A stretch of DNA of 64,000 nucleotides from Candidatus Hydrogenedentota bacterium. GTDB taxonomy: Bacteria; Hydrogenedentota; Hydrogenedentia; Hydrogenedentales; SLHB01. The notes below the pieces were generated by a model, which was given only the letters and a program-made list of their open reading frames with translations, did no database searches and had not been told where the DNA came from. The translations under genes were made by a program, and so were the position numbers. This document shows, piece after piece, positions 43,263 through 53,821 of this stretch; the first letter of the stretch is position 1, and every line of letters starts with the position of its first letter. The DNA is taken from assembly GCA_029552745.1 (NCBI GenBank), contig JAKPDK010000158.1, forward strand, positions 1 to 64,000. Direction: 5' to 3'.

Positions 43263-44066
43263 ATGCGAGTAGCGCGAGTGATGGATGAAAAAGGCACAGT
43301 CACCTATGCTATCCAAGATAAAGGGGGAACTCTTCTCCGTGCAGAGGGCGATCTCTTTTCTGGCACCCTGCGTGCCACGACGGAACAAATCGCACCAACG
43401 GGTTGGCTGCCACCGATAGACCCACCGGTTGTTCTCTGTATCGGGCTCAATTATGCAAAACACGCAGCGGAAGGTGGTTCCCCTATCCCCAAATACCCTG
43501 TATTGTTTATGAAGAATCCCAGGGCAGTCACGGGACATTTGCAACCGATTTGTATCCCCAAGGTGTGCGATGACGAAGTTGATTATGAAGCGGAATTGGT
43601 CGTCATTCTTAAGAAATCAGGACGCGATATCCCGAAGGAAAAGGCGCTCGAGTATGTGCTTGGATATACCGCTGGAAATGACGTTAGTGCCCGTCGCTGG
43701 CAGTCGGAACGCGGGGGGTCTCAGTGGAACCGAGGCAAGAGTTTCGACACCTTCGCACCCATGGGACCCTTTTTGGTGACAGCTGACGAAATCCCAAATC
43801 CCAACACGCTGGGCATACGCTCGGAACTGAACGGAAAAGAAATGCAGCGATCGAATACATCGGACATGATCTTCGACGTGCCGACTTTGATCGCGTTCCT
43901 CTCCCAAGATACCACCTTGATTGCTGGCACGGCAATTATGACGGGAACGCCGGAAGGCGTCGGTTGGACACGCAACCCCAAAATCACGCTGAAACCCGGA
44001 GACCAAATATCCGTGGAAGTGGAACAGATTGGCGTGCTGACCAATCCCGTGATTGCCGCTCCATAA
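43263..44066 (+). CDS. Fumarylacetoacetate hydrolase family protein, 267 aa
   Basis: The FAH-like core starts at PVVLCIGLNYAKHAAEGG, with KNPRAVTG, the metal-binding VDYEAELVVILKKSG, YTAGNDVSARRWQ, KSFDTFAPMGPFLVTADEI and the end motif GDQISVEVEQIGVLTNPV. The family includes acylpyruvases, oxaloacetate decarboxylases and catabolic hydrolases, so the reaction is not fixed. AGGAG precedes the ATG. The dispersed repeat copy A begins immediately after the stop codon. Confidence 0.93.
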   Translation: MRVARVMDEKGTVTYAIQDKGGTLLRAEGDLFSGTLRATTEQIAPTGWLPPIDPPVVLCIGLNYAKHAAEGGSPIPKYPVLFMKNPRAVTGHLQPICIPKVCDDEVDYEAELVVILKKSGRDIPKEKALEYVLGYTAGNDVSARRWQSERGGSQWNRGKSFDTFAPMGPFLVTADEIPNPNTLGIRSELNGKEMQRSNTSDMIFDVPTLIAFLSQDTTLIAGTAIMTGTPEGVGWTRNPKITLKPGDQISVEVEQIGVLTNPVIAAP

Positions 44067-44519
44067 GTCCACAAACCTTTGGCACTACATCGAGGAGGTA
44101 GACCAAGCTTATACGCCCGGTTGTCATTGCGAGGAGCGAGTCTTCGAAGCGACGAAGCAATCCCCTTACCCGCGTAGCGCACGAGGACAACACACAAAGA
44201 CAGGGTTTTCCCACTGTCCCCCGAGGGGATTGCCACGTCGTGCCTAACGGCTTCCTCGCAATGACAACGTAAGGTTGTAGCGCAAGGGGAGGTGGTGCCT
44301 GACGGCATTCGTCGTAATAGCAGGGGGCGGGACATAGCGCAAGAGGACGTAGTACGGAAAAACGAGGAATCCCGAGTGGTCAAAAAGGTTCATGAATGGA
44401 CAAGCGTACTTTGGTGATGCCATCCATTAGCGCCTTTCCCTTAAATACCTTGATGGAAAATCCTCTCTTCAGCACCCCATCCAACATCATAAAAAGTGTC
44501 AAAGGTACTGGACTTATAC
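44067..44519 (-). repeat. Dispersed repeat, copy A (inverted orientation)
   Basis: Read on the minus strand this stretch matches copy C at 53073-53468 from end to end with substitutions and small indels; shared blocks include GTATAAGTCCAGT, GTTGTCATTGCGAGGA and the edge GCCAAAGxTTTGTGxAC. An inner inverted repeat, 44122-44135 (TGTCATTGCGAGGA) against 44253-44266, bounds an internal segment. It fills the gap between the FAH-family and DUF169 genes. Confidence 0.8.
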
Positions 44520-44553
44520 TGCCGCCTGACCGAAAATCTCTTCACGCGGCGCT

Positions 44554-45297
44554 TTACAACCGGAATCGGACCTTCTCCCACGACCCGGTAATGAGAAAAC
44601 TTTCATCCATGTTCTGAACCATCGCGACAAACTTCTTCATCGGAATCGCAAACGAAAGGGTCTCACGCGGCACAAACGGACGCGCTGATACGTCAAACAT
44701 GCCAATTACAGCACGGGGCGCCGCGCTCTGCTGTTCTAGCAAGGGATATTGCACGATGGAACCACAACCCGCACAAAATGGGGCGATCACTCCTTCCCGC
44801 CGTTCTTCGTCGTAGTTTGCGAGTGTGAACAACCCAGATAAGACATCCGGCTTGGCGTAAAAAATGACCGCGACAGGCTCATCCTTTTCTTCCAGCAAAT
44901 CCCACCGCTTAAAGACGATGTATCGCCCAGGAGCAGGCAAATCGGGGACATTTTGCAGGAAGGCTCGAACCAATTCCGGGGACTTCTTATAGCGTTCCCC
45001 CTCCATTTGTCCCGGAATCCCACACGAAAGAAAATACTCGAAATTGGGGCGCAGCGTGCGACTGAAACCCAAATAGCGCTTCCCACCCTCGCACCCCACC
45101 GTGTTCACGTCAAACCGTTGGGGCTTTCCTTGTCGAACCGCCCCCAACTGCGCCAGGAAACATCGATGACCGTCGGGAGCATCCGCCAACTCAACCGACG
45201 AATCGTCGTCGGTGTAGTAAAACACGATGGGCAACTCCGAATGCGGAAAGTACTTCTGCCAGCGTTCGAGAAACATCTGCTTCAAGTACATATCCAT
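44554..45297 (-). CDS. DUF169 family protein, 247 aa
   Basis: Matches the uncharacterised DUF169 (COG2043) family: KYLGF-type block (RYLGFSRTLRPNFEYFLSCG), APFCAGCGSIVQYPLLEQ and PFVPRETLSFAIPMKKF are its conserved segments. The cysteines in CAGCGS and the family's common distribution in anaerobes suggest a redox or metal role, which is not established. The ATG at 45297 is chosen because GAGGAG is 9 bp upstream; the frame extends further without similarity. Soluble, single gene, just downstream of the broken DUF4832-type gene. Confidence 0.75.
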   Translation of the reverse strand: MDMYLKQMFLERWQKYFPHSELPIVFYYTDDDSSVELADAPDGHRCFLAQLGAVRQGKPQRFDVNTVGCEGGKRYLGFSRTLRPNFEYFLSCGIPGQMEGERYKKSPELVRAFLQNVPDLPAPGRYIVFKRWDLLEEKDEPVAVIFYAKPDVLSGLFTLANYDEERREGVIAPFCAGCGSIVQYPLLEQQSAAPRAVIGMFDVSARPFVPRETLSFAIPMKKFVAMVQNMDESFLITGSWEKVRFRL

Positions 45298-45365
45298 AGC
45301 ACCATACTCCTCGTTTATTTGTAAGTAACCCTTTTCACTCCAGCATAGCACACCGCTCGACGCTT

Positions 45366-46703
45366 CTAATGCTCGACTGTCGCCAAACTCAACCAACCGC
45401 TCGCGTGTTGGTCCTGTGTCTTGTTAGCGAACCGTATCGGTCTACCGTTCGACAGCGAATTGGGCACGGTCAACGCGACAATGTAGGTCCCTTTTGGTAA
45501 CCGCCGCGTAGTGAGCTCAGCAGACCAAACAACTGGGGCTTCCCCCGGCAATAACCCCAAGAGACGCCCCGCACCTTTCTGTTGCCGGACGACGGTGCCA
45601 TTTTGATCCAGCAACGCAAACACGGGCGACCATGCATAGTAGAATGGCGCGACTCCCCTGTTTTCCACCTGCACCGAAACTTGTAATTTTCCGCGATTAG
45701 GTCGGTTAATCGTAGCTGCAGAGACATAAAACTCGTAACCCATTCTACGCACCATTTCTTTTGTCCGCTGAACGCGTTCAGCATTTTGTGCCGACTCGTC
45801 CCCAGAAAACATCCCGGAGTCCATAAGCTAGGTCACATGAGTCGCTGCCACGCACTGCAAAAAATCTTGAATGCGGTCGCCGCCTGGGTCGATGTCAAAC
45901 ACTTTTCCCCATGCTTCCGGGCGAATCTCCCCGCCAATCGGATGTGTTTTCCACTTCTCCAGTGCCCCCTCCCCTGCTTCCGTCAATCGGGTCATAAAAG
46001 ACCAGCGGTCTTGTTTTTTACCCGTGTTTATTGTAGTCCAAGCAAACGAGTCATCGTGGTAACCAAAACAGCGCTGGGCATTTGCCGCGTAACGGTCTTG
46101 ATTTTCGCCCGCAGGATACCGCAACAATATGGGCGTCTTCTTGAAGGACGCCTCATACGCGTCCATAATCTCCTTTTGAACGTCCTTGCTCGCAAAAAGT
46201 TCAATGTGTGGATGCGTATGCCATTCCCCCCAGTAGCCGAGTAACCCTGCGGTAATAAACCCAATCCTCGGATCCCCATCGTAGCGCGCTCCCAAGGCAC
46301 TGATAAATTCCTTAAATACACGTCTCAACCGCTCATCTTCATAATTCGGGGTGACCATCTCCATTGGCGCGCCCTCCGTTAAACGCGAATTCGGATAACG
46401 GTGCACCGCCAAGCCGTCGCTGAGCAAAAAATCGGGGATAAGTTTGAAAGACGCTGGACTCCCCGGATATTCCAACATCACACGGAAAATCGCCTGATGT
46501 CCTCGTTGAGACACCGCGTCCAGGAAATTCTCCAAAGGTTGCCAATCATAGACACCATAATCTTTGACGAGATCAGATAAGGGGAAATACTGAAACTCCA
46601 TGCTGTGAGGGATCCTGCCTCGTCTGTCGCCTGCATAGGGCACCAACCCTTTTAGGGGATTATCAACCGGCGCAGGCGCATATTCTAGACGCACGGTAAT
46701 CAC
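45366..46703 (-). pseudogene. DUF4832-type protein gene interrupted by in-frame TAG
   Basis: Two open stretches in the same frame, 46703-45831 and 45827-45366, form one protein of about 445 residues separated only by TAG at 45828-45830. The first part has NPLKGLVPY, the barrel-like RVMLEYPG and LLGYWGEWHTHPH, the second the beta-sandwich end (VSVQVENRGVAPFYYAW, then LPKGTYIVALTVPN), the layout of DUF4874/DUF4832 proteins. The stop falls in THVT*LMDSG, where Trp is expected (TGG to TAG). Upstream of the GTG at 46703 the frame encodes a signal-peptide-like TILGIFWCFFVIV but has no ATG; an ATG at 46786 is out of frame. Confidence 0.8.
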
Positions 46704-46873
46704 TTTTCCTTCGTCCCCTACACCCTTACCAACGATAACAAAGAAACACCAGAATATCCCCAGAATAGTGCGAAGCGTTTGCTCATATCGTTTGAAGTGC
46801 TCCTATTTTGCCCAAAGCGCCATCTGCACCTAGTATAGTAAAATGCCTAAAACCAAACAAGCCTGTGTATTCG

Positions 46874-47268
46874 TCCTGTACCTTAGGCACCTTTTGTTGG
46901 GTTGGATTAGGAGTTGAACAGAGGTTTTTATGAACGTCATTAGTCATTAAGAGATAGGCTCCGAGGCATCGTGCCCCGAAGTACCTTAGAGCCCTTAACA
47001 AAACTCTTGAACATTCGGAATTACTCGTCTTTCCGTGCTACGTTCTATTGCCCCCACCCTGTCATTGCGAGGAGCCCCGAAGGGGCGACGTGGCAATCAC
47101 CTCAGGTATCCGAAAGTTACCCCCGACCTTTGCTTCACGTCCTCTTGTGCTGCACCGTTGAGGGGATCACTTCGTCGTTTCAGGAACTCGCTCCTCGCAA
47201 TGACAACCTGTTCGTCTAAAACCAGGTATACCTCCCCGATGCACTGCGAAGCGTTTGAGATCTCATGG
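46874..47268 (+). repeat. Dispersed repeat, copy B
   Basis: Same orientation as copy C at 53073, similar over nearly its whole length (for example TTTTGTTGxGTTGGATxAGGA, TGTCATTGCGAGGAG, GCTCCTCGCAATGACAACCTG). The inner inverted repeat is 15 bp perfect: 47060-47074 against 47191-47205. An extra hairpin GCCCCGAAGGGGC follows the left arm. Confidence 0.8.
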
Positions 47269-47626
47269 AGCCAGAAAAGAAATTAAAGATTGTTCATTTT
47301 TGAACAACCATTGAATATCCTGGGTTTCTTTATGGCCGATTATCTAATACAAATGTGAAAAATGGCTACTCAATACAAAAGTCCAAAGAGTCTAAAAAAT
47401 GTAACTTATTGATTTTATGTGAATTATAGCACAACCTATCATTGGCACGAAAAATGCTCGACATCTTCTCGGTTGTAAACTTTTGATGTTAACCGCAAGG
47501 TTCAAAGGATTGAGGCTTAGGGTCGAACACGGGAGTCGAGTGAGTCTGCTTTAAAAGGTCCCCTGAAACGGTTCCTTTGCATTGGCTTCTTACCAAACAT
47601 GCGACTTAAGGGACCCAGGGGGACAT
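47269..47626. other. A/T-rich intergenic stretch without recognised gene
   Basis: Contains a perfect 7-bp inverted repeat with a T4 loop (TTGTTCA 47290-47296, TGAACAA 47301-47307), which could be an operator or a small hairpin. No open frame with gene-like features and no tRNA. Confidence 0.45.
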
Positions 47627-47661
47627 AACAATGCGAAGTCGGTGTAAGACTTCGCATTGTT
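47627..47661. terminator. Hairpin terminator at the 3' end of the ABC/DUF4340 operon
   Basis: AACAATGCGAAGTC (47627-47640) pairs perfectly with GACTTCGCATTGTT (47648-47661), a 14-bp stem with a 7-nt loop. It lies 23 bp after the stop of the minus-strand DUF4340 gene. The U-tract is short in that direction. Confidence 0.65.
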
Positions 47662-47684
47662 GGTTTTATAGGGCAAAAGGCGCG

Positions 47685-49526
47685 TCACTCGTCCTTTACT
47701 CCGCGTAGCGCCTCCCGAACATCGTCTATCAAATCCTGTTTTACAAAGAACAGTTCCGGTCGGTTTCCACATAGGGCATAGCGGTATCGTTCGTTCTCGT
47801 CTTTTGCAAGCGCACCTACCCTCAAATAGGACATCTTTTGTCCGGAAGAAGCCTTTCCAGAATTCAAAGTAACCTCTACCGTCAAAATGGGTGCATCCAA
47901 ACCATAGGGAGCTAGGTCTGACGGTTGTTGGACACTGGCAATTCCTGTGGCACGTACCGAATGCAGAGTGTCCAGAAGAGCCGCCATGGCGCTCTGAGAC
48001 TCCCACACTTTTCCAGACGGTTTGACCACACGCCAAACCGTCGCTGCCTTTTCAAACTCGTAGTCGACTCCTTCAAACCGTAACGACACGTGAACCGCCT
48101 CTTCGGTTTTGAACTGCAACAAGTACTTGCCAACAAACATGAATGCACTCGCTTGTAAGAGGTTTTCGGCGGCAGTCACTGGAATAGTTACCACTGACCC
48201 GGTATCCTGAGTGGCGTAAGAGGCATTCTTGTCGTCTGCGGCATTTCCGATCCGCACCTCTACAGGTGTCTGTGCCCCTTTGTACTGGAGGGTCAAACGC
48301 CCCCTCGGCGCATCCAGACCCGCGTCAGACGGGACTCGGTCGAGAAACGTCGTAGCCTCGATGTCCATCAATTGGGCAATAAAACTTGAGACAGCCACCT
48401 GGTCGGTCTCCTGAACAGACGGTTCGGACAAGACCCACCCCTTTTGGTCATCCTTAACCAAGAAAAACGATTTGCCACCTGTTACGAATCGGATGGACAT
48501 GATTTCCGAGGCTTTACGCGTCACCAAACGCCGAGCACGAAATGCGGTGGGCGAGGCAGGGAACAATTTTTCAATGTCTTTAGCGACCGTAAAAACCGCA
48601 GGTTTGTCGGCGTGTTTGGCAAAAATCCTCGAGTCTTTTCCCTCTTTGGCTGTAGCGCCGAAATAAATAGTCGTCGGTTTGTCATCGCCTTCGACAAACA
48701 GCGTGATGCGCGCCTGGGGTGGGTCCAACCCATAGTCAGCCAATGGTTTGGGTTCGTCTACGAAATCCTTGCAAACATCCGTTTGCAATCGTTGCACAAG
48801 TCGTGACACCGACTCATTATCTGCCGGGGCTGTCACGGGTTCGCGTAGCACCCATGATTCGTCTGAGTCTCGTTCCACTGCCACAACAACGGATTCTTTA
48901 CCTTTTTCGATACCCGTTTGAGACGCGTTGGGCTCATTGCCTTGCCAGTACCGCGCAAACTCCAAACGGCGTATGGGCTTGTCCTTCTGAGGAAACAGGC
49001 GAAACTCGCGCAACAAATCTAGTCCTCGGTTCAACTCGAAAAAGGCATCTTCACTCACCAAGAGAATGGCGGTATCGTTGACCTGAGCATAGCGATTCTT
49101 TCGTGTGGGACCCGGCATACCAAAGGTTATCTTCAATTTCGCGCCCTCAAAGGTTTCTGCCTCTACAGTAAGGCGGGGCACGTCTAATTCATAATGGGAG
49201 ACCTCTTTCGGGTTTTCCTCTAGAAGACGCTCGGTACTCAACTCCGCAAGATGCGCGGCTATACGATTCCAAATCTCTTGGTAAGCGTCGAGCGGGTAAG
49301 GGGCCTCGATATGCCAGGTCCCCGTGGCATCTTTGCTTGCCACCACAGGCCTTTGTTTTTCTTGTTGAATACTGATTTTTCGGAAATCGCCTGCTTCGAA
49401 GCTGAATACCTTTTTCTGCTGGACGGCGCGCTGGCGCCAATAACTTTCAAACCAGAGTGCGCCAAAATAAGCGCCGCATAACAGAAAGAAGACAACTCCC
49501 AATACCGCGGTCGTTTTCGGTTTCAT
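47685..49526 (-). CDS. DUF4340 domain protein, membrane anchored, 613 aa
   Basis: One N-terminal transmembrane helix (TAVLGVVFFLLCGAYFGALW) is followed by repeated DUF4340-type beta units: YELDVPRLTVEAE, YGLDPPQARITLFVEG, AGLDAPRGRLTLQYKG and YGLDAPILTVEVTL each begin a similar ~100-residue module, so four tandem modules are visible. Proteins of this kind commonly follow GldG-like genes in ABC exporter operons; the role is unknown. The ATG at 49526 overlaps the upstream stop (ATGA). Confidence 0.85.
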   Translation of the reverse strand: MKPKTTAVLGVVFFLLCGAYFGALWFESYWRQRAVQQKKVFSFEAGDFRKISIQQEKQRPVVASKDATGTWHIEAPYPLDAYQEIWNRIAAHLAELSTERLLEENPKEVSHYELDVPRLTVEAETFEGAKLKITFGMPGPTRKNRYAQVNDTAILLVSEDAFFELNRGLDLLREFRLFPQKDKPIRRLEFARYWQGNEPNASQTGIEKGKESVVVAVERDSDESWVLREPVTAPADNESVSRLVQRLQTDVCKDFVDEPKPLADYGLDPPQARITLFVEGDDKPTTIYFGATAKEGKDSRIFAKHADKPAVFTVAKDIEKLFPASPTAFRARRLVTRKASEIMSIRFVTGGKSFFLVKDDQKGWVLSEPSVQETDQVAVSSFIAQLMDIEATTFLDRVPSDAGLDAPRGRLTLQYKGAQTPVEVRIGNAADDKNASYATQDTGSVVTIPVTAAENLLQASAFMFVGKYLLQFKTEEAVHVSLRFEGVDYEFEKAATVWRVVKPSGKVWESQSAMAALLDTLHSVRATGIASVQQPSDLAPYGLDAPILTVEVTLNSGKASSGQKMSYLRVGALAKDENERYRYALCGNRPELFFVKQDLIDDVREALRGVKDE

Positions 49527-51196
49527 TGGTACTTCCTGCGCACCGTGTAGATAACCAGTCCGGCTAATACGACCACATGTACCAACGCCAGACTCGCTAT
49601 CCAAGCAATGACTTGCTCTTGTAAGGGCGACAACACAATCGGGTTATCCTCTTGTCGCGTAGCCCGAATGCCGATCAGCTCCTCACTTTCCGTAAGCCAA
49701 GCGAAAATATTCATCACAAGGTTTCCACTCGATAACAAGCCACGATTGGTCGCTAGGTCGCGGCTTCCTACGACGACAAGACGTGCTTCGCGGGCAACGC
49801 CGGAATCATCTGTCTGCCGAGAGCTTTTTCTGACTACGGCAACCGCCAAGGGTAATGCGCCTTCTTCCTCGTCGGCATCCTTTCTGGATGCGCGCCAGCC
49901 CGCTTGGATAACACCGGCAAGGTCTTTCTCCGCCCAACAGTCCGGCGTGCTGCGTAGTAAGACCTCTCCGGTGACATCTTTGGGCATTTTGTCAACCAAC
50001 GATACACTGCGAGCGCCCCGTAATTTCAGAATCTCGGTGTAACCACGCGTAATCGGGTGATTGTCGTTATAGGAACCCCGATAAGGACTTTCGCCATCCT
50101 CCGCTGCAAAACTTGGTTTTAGGGTTATCTCTACACCCGTCGACCGAGAAACAACGATGTCCTCGCCGACCCGAATGCCATATTTTTCTTCGAGCCAAGG
50201 GCGCATTTGCTCGACAATCCGGACGTCTGGCAACCGCTGGACCGCCCAAATGTCGAGAAATACGAGCAGCCGGCCGCCGCGTTCCAGATATTCCTCGAGA
50301 GCAGCCACATCATAGGGACGCAGGTCTCGATTTTGACCGTAAATTACCAGTAGATCACAATCAGCCGGAACATGGGCGCTATCGGGCTGAAATTGGAGTT
50401 GTTTCACTTCGTACGATTCGCCTAGCAAAAGTCCGCGTAAGATGCTACCACCTTGTTCTGGGTCTTGGTCGGTGATGTCCTTTTCCCCATGCCCAGACAA
50501 GAAATAAACCTTGGGCGCCGCATCGCGCAGAACCGCTATCAACGCATTCGTAAAGTCCCGTTCTTCGAGCCGCGGGTTTACCCCCGTAAGGGCAATCACC
50601 CGTGGTTTGCGGTCGCCGCAGCGAACGACAACCGTGCCCGAAGGAGATGCACGCGGTATATCCAGACGTTTTAGGATTAGCGGGTCACTTTCGGGGTCTA
50701 CAATTTCATACCGCAAGTGTTCCGGGGCATACTTACGACATCGCTCCAAGAAGACGCGGGTCTTATCCTCCGCTACCGCAACGAGGCTGTCCGCGGCGGA
50801 AACGAATAGTCCGTATACCTCGACACTCTTGTCCATTGTTTTCAGAACTTGTATCGTCTGAGGAGACAGTTCGCGCCGTCCCTCCTGAGTCAGGTCCCAG
50901 CCGACGTCCCAATGTCGCACAAAACCATACGTTGCTACACAAATACCAAAAAAGAACAACGAACCCAACACGGCGTTGATTCCAGCGGCGGATGCCTCAA
51001 GTTCCGCCGATTGAACAAATCGAACCAACGTCCACACGATCCAGACAACTCCGAGCACTAAACCAAGCGCAAAGGGAATAACTACGGGAGCGACGAACGG
51101 CGTCTGTTTCAGCAAAAGAAAATTCAGCGCTACATCCAGCAGAATGATTGCCCCAATCCCCAGAGCCGAGCGTAATTTTCCGACAGGGTCTGTCAT
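49523..51196 (-). CDS. GldG-like ABC exporter auxiliary protein, 557 aa
   Basis: Three N-terminal hydrophobic segments (residues about 10-95) are followed by a large extracytoplasmic domain (DLTQEGRRELSPQTIQVLKTM, VYFLSGHGEKDI, YDVAALEEYLERGGRLLVFLD) and a final helix near the C-terminus (IASLALVHVVVLAGLVIYTV). This is the plan of GldG/ABC_transp_aux proteins. In Bacteroidota GldG works with GldA and GldF in gliding; here a general export or envelope role is more cautious. ATGA overlaps on both sides. Confidence 0.87.
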   Translation of the reverse strand: MTDPVGKLRSALGIGAIILLDVALNFLLLKQTPFVAPVVIPFALGLVLGVVWIVWTLVRFVQSAELEASAAGINAVLGSLFFFGICVATYGFVRHWDVGWDLTQEGRRELSPQTIQVLKTMDKSVEVYGLFVSAADSLVAVAEDKTRVFLERCRKYAPEHLRYEIVDPESDPLILKRLDIPRASPSGTVVVRCGDRKPRVIALTGVNPRLEERDFTNALIAVLRDAAPKVYFLSGHGEKDITDQDPEQGGSILRGLLLGESYEVKQLQFQPDSAHVPADCDLLVIYGQNRDLRPYDVAALEEYLERGGRLLVFLDIWAVQRLPDVRIVEQMRPWLEEKYGIRVGEDIVVSRSTGVEITLKPSFAAEDGESPYRGSYNDNHPITRGYTEILKLRGARSVSLVDKMPKDVTGEVLLRSTPDCWAEKDLAGVIQAGWRASRKDADEEEGALPLAVAVVRKSSRQTDDSGVAREARLVVVGSRDLATNRGLLSSGNLVMNIFAWLTESEELIGIRATRQEDNPIVLSPLQEQVIAWIASLALVHVVVLAGLVIYTVRRKYQ

Positions 51197-52029
51197 ACGC
51201 CCGTCCTCCATTTCCGGGTTTCGAACACACGAAACGTCAGGAAAAGGAAAAACGCAGTCAGCACCCCATAATAGACAATGTCCTCCAACTGCAGAACCCC
51301 TTGTGTCATTTGCTGGGCGTGAGCATCAAGAGGTAAATCGAGAACAAGCCGGCGGAAAACTCGATAGAAAAAGCCGACGATCGTTCGGGCTTGGTCGCTC
51401 CACGTTGCCGGGGCGGGGTTGGCTTCGCTGAGATCTTTTCCTACAGCCCCCAGAATATAGGAAATGAAAAAGGCGCCGAACGTCGTCGTTGCGGAAGTTA
51501 TGGGGTTTTTCGCCAATGCCGAAATGAATAGCCCGACACTGACAAAGGCAGCCCCCATCAGAAACACGGCTAAAACACCCAGAACGAGGACAGCCGGCTC
51601 CACCGTGGCGAACCATGCCACGATACATAAGTGGACGAAAATGCCACCCATCATGACCACAAGCAGAGCAAGCGCAGCCACATATTTGCCAAAAATAATC
51701 TCCGCATCACGAACGGGATAACTGAGCAACAGTTCCATGGAGCCCCGGTGCCTTTCCTCCGCCAACAGCCGCATGGTGATCAGAGGCCCAAGGAAAATCA
51801 TGACTTGCCCGCAAAACACCAAAAAGGGACTCAACATAGTCTCTTCAAAATCGGGCACCCCGGGATATTGGTACGCAGCAGGAGATTGAGATATTCGCGC
51901 ATAGTAAATAAAACTTGCTAGAAACCCAATACCTGTAATCGCGACATACACCGCAGTGACAACATATCCGATGGGTGTGACGAAATAGCTGAAGAATTCC
52001 CGTTTCGCAATCGCGAAAAACGCCCTCAT
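51193..52029 (-). CDS. ABC-2 type transporter permease (GldF-like), 278 aa
   Basis: Six hydrophobic segments. The N-terminal KREFFSYFVTPIGYVVTAVY and the block LITMRLLAEERHRGSMELLLSYPV followed by DAEIIFGKYVAALAL are the ABC-2/GldF hallmarks. It would form the membrane channel for the ATPase encoded just upstream. It overlaps both neighbours by 4 bp. Confidence 0.93.
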   Translation of the reverse strand: MRAFFAIAKREFFSYFVTPIGYVVTAVYVAITGIGFLASFIYYARISQSPAAYQYPGVPDFEETMLSPFLVFCGQVMIFLGPLITMRLLAEERHRGSMELLLSYPVRDAEIIFGKYVAALALLVVMMGGIFVHLCIVAWFATVEPAVLVLGVLAVFLMGAAFVSVGLFISALAKNPITSATTTFGAFFISYILGAVGKDLSEANPAPATWSDQARTIVGFFYRVFRRLVLDLPLDAHAQQMTQGVLQLEDIVYYGVLTAFFLFLTFRVFETRKWRTGV

Positions 52030-52991
52030 GGTTCCTGCTCCGTGCTTCCCGATAAGGACTCTTCCGTTGCAATAGCTTCCACAAAAATATCCTCCAAGGT
52101 GCGAGACCTCTCCTGCAAAGCCACTACAGCAACCCCCGCCCTGACTAGTTTGTCCGCTATTTGGTTTGGCGTCACGTGCCCCCGCAAACCCGTTACTTCA
52201 AAACGATACCCTGTCGACTCCGAGCCGCCTCGGAGTTGAACCAAATCCACCCCGGGAACGCCTTGAAGAATGTTGCGAATCGTTTGTTCAGAACCTATCG
52301 CCTCAACCCAAACAGTAACCCGTTCAGCGGATTTTTCCAGAACCGACATAGCGTCCTGCGTAACGATGCGACCTTGGTGAATGATAATAACGCGGCGACA
52401 CACCATGGAAACCTCAGGCAAAATATGGGAACTTAACAAAATCGTGTGACTATCCGCCAACGACCGAATCATTTCGCGGATCTCGATGATCTGACGAGGG
52501 TCAAGCCCAACGGTAGGTTCGTCAAGAATGAGAACCGCCGGATTCCCGATCAAGGCTTGTGCTAGACCGACACGTTGTCGATATCCTTTGGATAGATGAC
52601 CCACCTGCCGGCGGCTCATGTGCGTGAGACCACACCGCTCCATCACCCGCCCGATCTCACGCGAGACTTCCCCACGTGCCACGCCTTTTATGTCGGCAAC
52701 ATACTTGAGAAATCCTTGCACCGTCATTTCGGGATAAATCGATATGTTCTCGGGAAGATAGCCTAAGTTCCGCTTTGCTTCCAGCGAATTGTCTGTTACG
52801 CTGAACCCCGCAATTCGAGCCGTCCCGGAGCTCGGCGGCATACATCCCGCCAAAATACGTAGTGTGGTGCTTTTACCTGCCGCGTTGGGACCCAGGAAAC
52901 CGACCACCTCGCCTTTTTCGATTTGAAAGGTGACATCCTGTATAGCCGGGATACGCCCGTAATATTTCGTCAGTCCTTGCGTTTCTATCAT
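52026..52991 (-). CDS. ABC transporter ATP-binding protein (GldA-like), 321 aa
   Basis: Complete ATPase: Walker A GFLGPNAAGKSTT, Q-loop near YLPENISIYPEMT, signature LSKGYRQRVGLAQAL, Walker B AVLILDEPTVGLDP and switch His in LLSSHILPE. The C-terminal ~100 residues form the regulatory extension common in ABC-2 exporters (DUF4162-like). First gene of the ABC-permease-GldG-DUF4340 operon, which reads leftward. No clear promoter was found in the 80 bp before dispersed repeat copy C. Confidence 0.95.
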   Translation of the reverse strand: MIETQGLTKYYGRIPAIQDVTFQIEKGEVVGFLGPNAAGKSTTLRILAGCMPPSSGTARIAGFSVTDNSLEAKRNLGYLPENISIYPEMTVQGFLKYVADIKGVARGEVSREIGRVMERCGLTHMSRRQVGHLSKGYRQRVGLAQALIGNPAVLILDEPTVGLDPRQIIEIREMIRSLADSHTILLSSHILPEVSMVCRRVIIIHQGRIVTQDAMSVLEKSAERVTVWVEAIGSEQTIRNILQGVPGVDLVQLRGGSESTGYRFEVTGLRGHVTPNQIADKLVRAGVAVVALQERSRTLEDIFVEAIATEESLSGSTEQEP

Positions 52992-53072
52992 GATCTTTGT
53001 TTTTAAGACTCGTCAACGCCCCGAATGTTGTCGCATAGTTTACATGAGTTTACACCCACGAATAAACGTGAT

Positions 53073-53468
53073 GTATAAGTCCAGTGCCTTTGACATTTTT
53101 TGTTGTGTTGGATGAGGAATTGAACACTGGACGTTGCATAAAGGTCACTAAAGGAAAGACATCAACGCATGCCATTTCCGAAGTACGTTGGAACTATTTA
53201 CGAACCCCTTTGACGACTTGGGATTACTTGTTTTTCCGCGCTGCGTGCTAATGCGCTACGCCCCCGCTGTCATTGCGAGGAGTGCCACCAGGCGCGACGT
53301 GGCAATCCCCTCAGGCCTCCGGTGATTACCCCAACCCCTGCCCCACGTCCCCTTGCGCTGCGCGGTTAAGGGGATTGCTTCGTCGTTTCGAAGACTCGCT
53401 CCTCGCAATGACAACCTGGTGTAAACACAGGTCTAGCGCTTCGATGCAATGCCAAAGATTTGTGAACT
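53073..53468 (+). repeat. Dispersed repeat, copy C
   Basis: Reference copy of the family. The inner 15-bp perfect inverted repeat is 53268-53282 (TGTCATTGCGAGGAG) against 53399-53413. Copy A matches its reverse complement from edge to edge; copy B matches in the same orientation. It sits in the divergent gap between the ABC operon and the nqr operon. Confidence 0.8.
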
Positions 53469-53821
53469 CATGCACGGGTTCGAATTGTTGCATGTGCGTC
53501 CCCAAAACACCTTTCCTTGCAGACATCCAGATAGGGCATACAGGCATCGTCCATTCCTAGCGAAACCCTGAGAACATGGCTTTTTCGCTATAATGTGCAC
53601 GAATTAAGTCGCTTGAATTGCGCAAGGCGTATTTTTCAGCTCTGTTTTCCGTGCGGTTGAGAATATTTTGAGGCGTTTTGATGTTACCAAAAGTGAATTT
53701 AATCACAGTTAGAACCGTTTTCCAAGGTCGAATTCTGATGCGGTCGTAATCAGCATGTGACCTTGTTCTGTTGTAGTTTGGTTTTTGATGGCCGCCTATG
53801 GCATGATTTTGCGTTGGGTTA
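53469..53821. other. Non-coding stretch upstream of nqr
   Basis: No gene recognised. A TATAAT at 53589-53594 could be a -10 box but lacks a good -35, and it is about 370 bp from nqrA. The remainder is T-rich without strong hairpins. Confidence 0.4.

Follow-up and report, generated by a model that had tools for sequence, protein, structure and literature searches.

Three 0.4-kb repeats, each with an inner inverted repeat, are present in the window analysed here (a 64-kb stretch, contig C109 of a 4.36-Mb, 188-contig Candidatus Hydrogenedentota MAG), and we consider it very probable that they are MITEs derived from an insertion sequence (IS) of IS481-like type that has sigma70-type promoters as its insertion sites. 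The nearest NqrA proteins in named genomes, at 59–64% identity, come from Candidatus Hydrogenedentota. Each of the sequence types involved, MITEs, REPINs and IS481 elements, is already known. A preliminary description had recognised the three repeats, which proved to be real, and had proposed either a non-autonomous mobile element or a structured regulatory repeat, without the true ends, the autonomous partner or the promoter-specific target. The former proposal is borne out by common terminal inverted repeats, 5-bp target site duplications (TSDs) in 25 of 53 copies, an IS in this genome that has identical ends, and a left arm in which part of the IS transposase gene survives as a relic; the latter is taken up below.

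The repeats as MITEs of an IS481-like element

Terminal repeats and TSDs place the copies at 44060–44520 (copy A, minus strand, 461 bp), 46866–47269 (copy B, plus strand, 404 bp) and 53072–53474 (copy C, plus strand, 403 bp), near to but slightly different from the edges first proposed. A check for TSDs at these edges found an exact one in copy A (GCCGC, at 44055–44059 and 44521–44525), a 4/5 match in copy B (GCCTG at 46861–46865, GCCAG at 47270–47274) and a 3/5 match in copy C (CGTGA at 53067–53071, CGGGT at 53475–53479). Copy A, defined by its terminal repeats, its exact TSD and a reading of the empty site, lies in the last codons of an FAA-hydrolase gene. It had correctly been said to start exactly at a stop codon: the TAA that ends the gene is supplied by the element's own end (CCATAAG). 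The reconstructed empty site reads ...NPVIAA*, and the FAA-hydrolase of a relative, where homologues are about 63% identical, ends ...NPVVAA*. Copies A and B enclose, as described, a DUF169 gene and a broken DUF4874/DUF4832 gene (45366–46787, minus strand); the latter is split into separate frames and is a pseudogene, with copy B on its promoter. No match to any Rfam family was found anywhere in the window.

When copy C was searched against the genome it matched 131 places, so that further copies do exist. Our survey of the genome, which covered stretches of contigs and the whole of contig C25, yielded about 90 MITE copies, counted by their left ends, of 0.4–0.7 kb; the 53 copies with paired ends are 322–737 bp long. 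The left terminal repeat occurs at 79 sites (vs 0 for the control), the ends of full copies are constant (left, TGTATAAGTCCAGTACCTTTGGCAC...; right, read inward, TGCATAAGTTCACAAACCTTTGGCACTGCAT...), and the terminal inverted repeats span about 25–30 bp. The 5-bp TSD matches at four or more of five positions in 25 of the 53 paired copies and exactly in 9, vs 1.75% and 0.04%, respectively, in a control that compared the left flank of one copy with the right flank of a different one. Other TSD lengths were rejected, the signal lying at exactly 5 bp. An exact match to the same left end was not found in named GTDB genomes.

Both MITE ends match an IS of about 1086 bp, of which the same genome holds at least six near-identical copies. 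This IS carries a single ORF of 346 amino acids with HTH and rve/rve_3 domains, assembled from the ends of contigs C95 and C106 across an overlap of 141 identical bases. Many contigs break off some 141 bases into one of the element ends, left or right, a pattern typical of near-identical multi-copy elements in short-read assemblies. Six contig-split IS copies could be paired by identical 5-bp flanks (GGTTA, TATTG, CTGAA, GCGGC, ATAGT and TCCGA), which suggests recent transposition. The best NCBIfam model for the transposase is that of the IS481 transposases (NF033577), and since its score, 174.9 bits, is under the cut-off of 224, we call the element IS481-like; close relatives of the transposase are annotated as IS481. 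The transposase was found neither in 67 other Hydrogenedentota genomes at E <= 1e-30 nor in viral contigs. As a side observation, IS copies at the ends of contigs C7, C23, C24, C25, C26, C27, C29, C35, C36, C37, C106 and C162 carry 5-bp duplications that match one another and hint at which of these contigs adjoin; the IS could thus be used to scaffold this Hydrogenedentota MAG.

The left arms of the MITEs align with approximately residues 321–346 of the IS transposase, including those of copy A (44440–44520, plus strand, residues 320–346) and copy C (53072–53149, minus strand, residues 321–346). The earlier statement that the repeats encode no protein thus holds overall, apart from this remnant of about 26 codons of the transposase C-terminus. 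As is expected of MITEs, the repeats are short, non-coding and present in many copies, have terminal inverted repeats in common with an autonomous element and are flanked by a TSD. Because their left arms keep the transposase relic, they are internal-deletion derivatives of the IS, and they are presumably mobilised in trans by its transposase.

The insertion site

With the left end defined as the element end nearest the transposase C-terminus, we read the target outward from 93 distinct IS/MITE left ends, calling promoters from sequence alone. The order outward is the 5-bp TSD, a -35 hexamer, a spacer of 17 or 18 bp and a -10 box. Directly outside the TSD stands TCAA, the reverse complement of the -35 word TTGA(CA). 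TAnnnT follows at a spacer of 17 in 36 and of 18 in 33 of the 93 sites, most other spacings giving about 2 of 93; the combined 69 of 93 compare with 3.9 expected (P ~2e-74). Right ends lack the promoter signal (TTG in 3 of 59, -10 in 3 of 59). ORFs that resemble genes and have a ribosome-binding site follow in the outward direction at 61 of 91 sites, vs 6 of 91 in the opposite direction, and tRNA genes follow 8 element sites.

Two of the copies in the window face such a promoter, both on the minus strand and called from sequence. That of copy B (46832–46860) combines a -35 box TTGTTT (46855–46860), 17 bp and a -10 box TATACT (46832–46837) upstream of the broken DUF4874/DUF4832 gene, and that of copy C (53037–53066) a -35 box TTTATT (53061–53066), 18 bp and a -10 box TAAACT (53037–53042) upstream of an ABC ATPase gene (52026–52991, minus strand). 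TAnnnT at a spacer of 17 or 18 is absent from 24 of the 93 sites; copy A, within the end of the FAA-hydrolase gene, is one of these exceptions.

The IS begins at about -41, and its transposase gene is codirectional with the target gene. The transposase ORF (..W-T-Y-T) extends to the element's final base. At TTGA targets, which account for 40 of the 93 left ends, its reading frame first meets a stop codon in the -35 box, at the TGA.

Alternative explanations and the nested REP pair

The most serious rival, in our view an improbable one, is that the transposase reads only the TCAA/TTGA word by the 5-bp cut and that promoter proximity reflects selection against insertions in genes. TTG is indeed the strongest part of the motif (T in 88, T in 77 and G in 72 of the 93 sites), but intergenic TTGs, taken 40–200 nt upstream of a codirectional ORF, have a -10 box at 17/18 bp in only 34 of 398 cases (8.5%), as against 45 of the 61 element sites with TTG (74%; odds ratio 30, P 2e-27). 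Similarly, 8 of 183 TTGACA words of contig C25 are followed by a -10 box, compared with 10 of 15 element sites, and among sites with a poor -35 box 28 of 38 still retain the -10.

A second family of repeats bears on the next alternative. Each copy in the window contains an inverted pair of TGTCATTGCGAGGAG-type REPs (44122–44266 in copy A, 47060–47205 in copy B and 53268–53413 in copy C), and TGTCATTGCGAGGAG has 305 exact sites in the genome vs 0 for its reversed control. Contig C25 holds 94 REP sites (with at most two mismatches) in 49 clusters, 30 of which have no terminal repeat nearby, and the spacing of REP doublets, mostly 137–149 bp on this contig, is alike inside and outside the MITE. 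We therefore have the features of a REPIN, namely an inverted REP pair of constant spacing, in many copies, that also occurs outside the MITE, and we read it as a separate second repeat family nested in, or captured by, the MITE. What remains of the proposed structured regulatory repeat is this inner REPIN, which folds unusually well (z = -5.4 for the REP doublet of copy C), but 30 of the 49 clusters on C25 lie outside the MITE. Although the pair resembles known REPINs in its inverted arrangement, its hundreds of sites and its hairpin fold, it differs from them in being nested in a MITE and in having an only putative link to a RAYT. The 305 sites, together with the one RAYT gene of the genome (94.3 bits, cut-off 80), might suggest that the whole 0.4-kb unit is a REPIN-type element moved by RAYT. 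We regard this as very improbable: the outer ends and the 5-bp TSDs match the IS481-like element, REP doublets also stand alone without MITE ends, and the sampled flanks of the RAYT gene, where the contig ends nearby, contain no TGTCATTGCGAG. On the TSDs and the IS-derived ends, RAYT was ruled out as the mover of the whole element.

Hardest of all to credit is a promoter that belongs to the repeat and travels with it in a larger element. The signal does keep a constant distance to the left end, but it falls beyond the duplicated 5 bp, and spacers and downstream genes differ, with only four pairs of element sites having similar flanks.

We return to insertion at promoters by an IS481-like element. 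The IS and its MITEs would insert 5 bp upstream of the -35 box, in one orientation, at about -41. The choice of target would depend on RNA polymerase bound at the promoter, or on its sigma factor, a proposal for which we see the balance as roughly even and which we favour to this extent because the -10 box is kept at the right spacing even where the -35 box is poor. Likewise, three features point to recognition of the promoter as a whole, most simply by way of the RNA polymerase holoenzyme: the fixed distance to the -35 box, the tolerance of spacers of 17 or 18 bp, and a -10 that is there even when the -35 is poor. Alternatively, the transposase might read the promoter DNA directly. Since core promoter and gene stay intact, the insertion site is probably a safe harbour, and this may be why some 90 copies have accumulated.

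With respect to the REPs, nothing matching their sequence was found in the open-access literature. The REP part, not the IS, has short matches in two genomes of the same order (G015 and G025, loci L134 and L140), and the REP family would therefore be older or more widespread than the MITE. Beside the RAYT gene (L032, G000:C36:81191-83831), two genes (ORFs 1836–2612 and 2–1252, both on the minus strand) contain in-frame repeats that read AEAGLQHS/AEARLQQS and, on the other strand, GLLKPCFS; these are apparently insertions of another REP-like family into genes.

Relatives of the transposase and comparison with known systems

Among relatives of the transposase, that of Sulfuricystis (58% identical, plasmid record) has the TSD AAGGC and the target TTGCAA-17-TAGAAT, and that of Nitrosophilus (50%, plasmid record) reads AATAA-TTGACT-18-TAAAAT, with a far flank that has no clear 5-bp repeat. 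The N. labii annotation of the transposase also ends at the TGA of the -35 box. Neither a TSD nor a consensus promoter was found for the Nitratiruptor relative (plasmid record).

ISKpn28, an IS481-family element of Klebsiella and E. coli plasmids and chromosomes, resembles the Hydrogenedentota element in its transposase (about 42% identical over the full length), its 5-bp TSD, its end ..CCATACA facing TTGnnn-17-(-10) and a stop codon outside the element; it differs in its host and its diverged ends, and some copies misfit. ISKpn28-group copies with an exact 5-bp TSD (L300/L316, which are one site, L298, L303, L311, L312, L313, L314 and L315) are followed by TTGnnn, a spacer of 17 and a -10-like hexamer with 3–6 of 6 matches, the weakest being CACTAT of L303 (3/6). 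Sites of this group adjoin hok, ldr, yehL, the colicin V immunity gene (cvi) and a type III toxin-antitoxin gene. The misfit is the E. coli relative's site at yegH (TTGCC/TTGCA), which does not conform to a consensus promoter; it is common to several E. coli strains and probably inherited. No promoter was found at the junctions of the ISKpn28-group copies L295, L296 and L309, whose flanks do not match, as would follow from a later replacement of one flank.

From these comparisons we infer a promoter-targeting group of IS. More tentatively, and with slightly less than even confidence, we suggest that a whole IS481-like subgroup, extending from Hydrogenedentota to ISKpn28 of E. coli and Klebsiella, reaches its sites by docking on the RNA polymerase holoenzyme at the promoter. 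Integration would then occur at about -41, in a single orientation, upstream of promoters that include those of tRNAs and of antitoxin RNAs, and the -35 box would lend its TGA as the stop codon; this would be a bacterial counterpart of integration as in yeast Ty3. Ty3 and Ty1 integrate at a fixed place upstream of transcription starts, including those of tRNA genes, guided by Pol III factors. They share with the Hydrogenedentota element the fixed position upstream of start sites and the tRNA genes among its targets, but are unrelated to it, and its own link to RNA polymerase is only surmised.

Target choice by bacterial IS is usually described as near-random, as directed to a short word or as confined to one specific site. 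In the open-access literature we found no account of promoter targeting in this register by an IS or a MITE, which is weak evidence of novelty, and as far as we could find the putative promoter targeting of ISKpn28 appears here for the first time. The nearest described case is the -10-like TA preference of the CREE/Correia MITEs of Neisseria, whose duplicated TA resembles a -10 (PMC9330008). These, too, are MITEs with a target that resembles part of a promoter; however, their TA mimics the -10 itself, whereas the Hydrogenedentota element inserts 5 bp upstream of a -35 that is left intact. For those members of the IS481 family that target NCTAGN, such as ISLxc2, the target likewise supplies the stop codon (PMC2516522), and TSDs in the IS481 family are mostly 6 bp (PMC10045372). 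The NCTAGN type thus shares with our element a related transposase and a target-derived stop, but differs from its 5-bp TSD beside a promoter.

A compact IS whose insertions are aligned with a complete promoter would illustrate how a mobile element can avoid harm to its host and, if our reading is true, each insertion marks one promoter and serves as a natural promoter marker. Promoter targeting would also explain the presence of ISKpn28-type elements at plasmid toxin-antitoxin RNA loci. Finally, PGAP labels several E. coli IS481 transposases (L309–L320) as 'missing C-terminus', an annotation artefact apparently caused by, and explained by, a stop codon that lies in the flanking target DNA.
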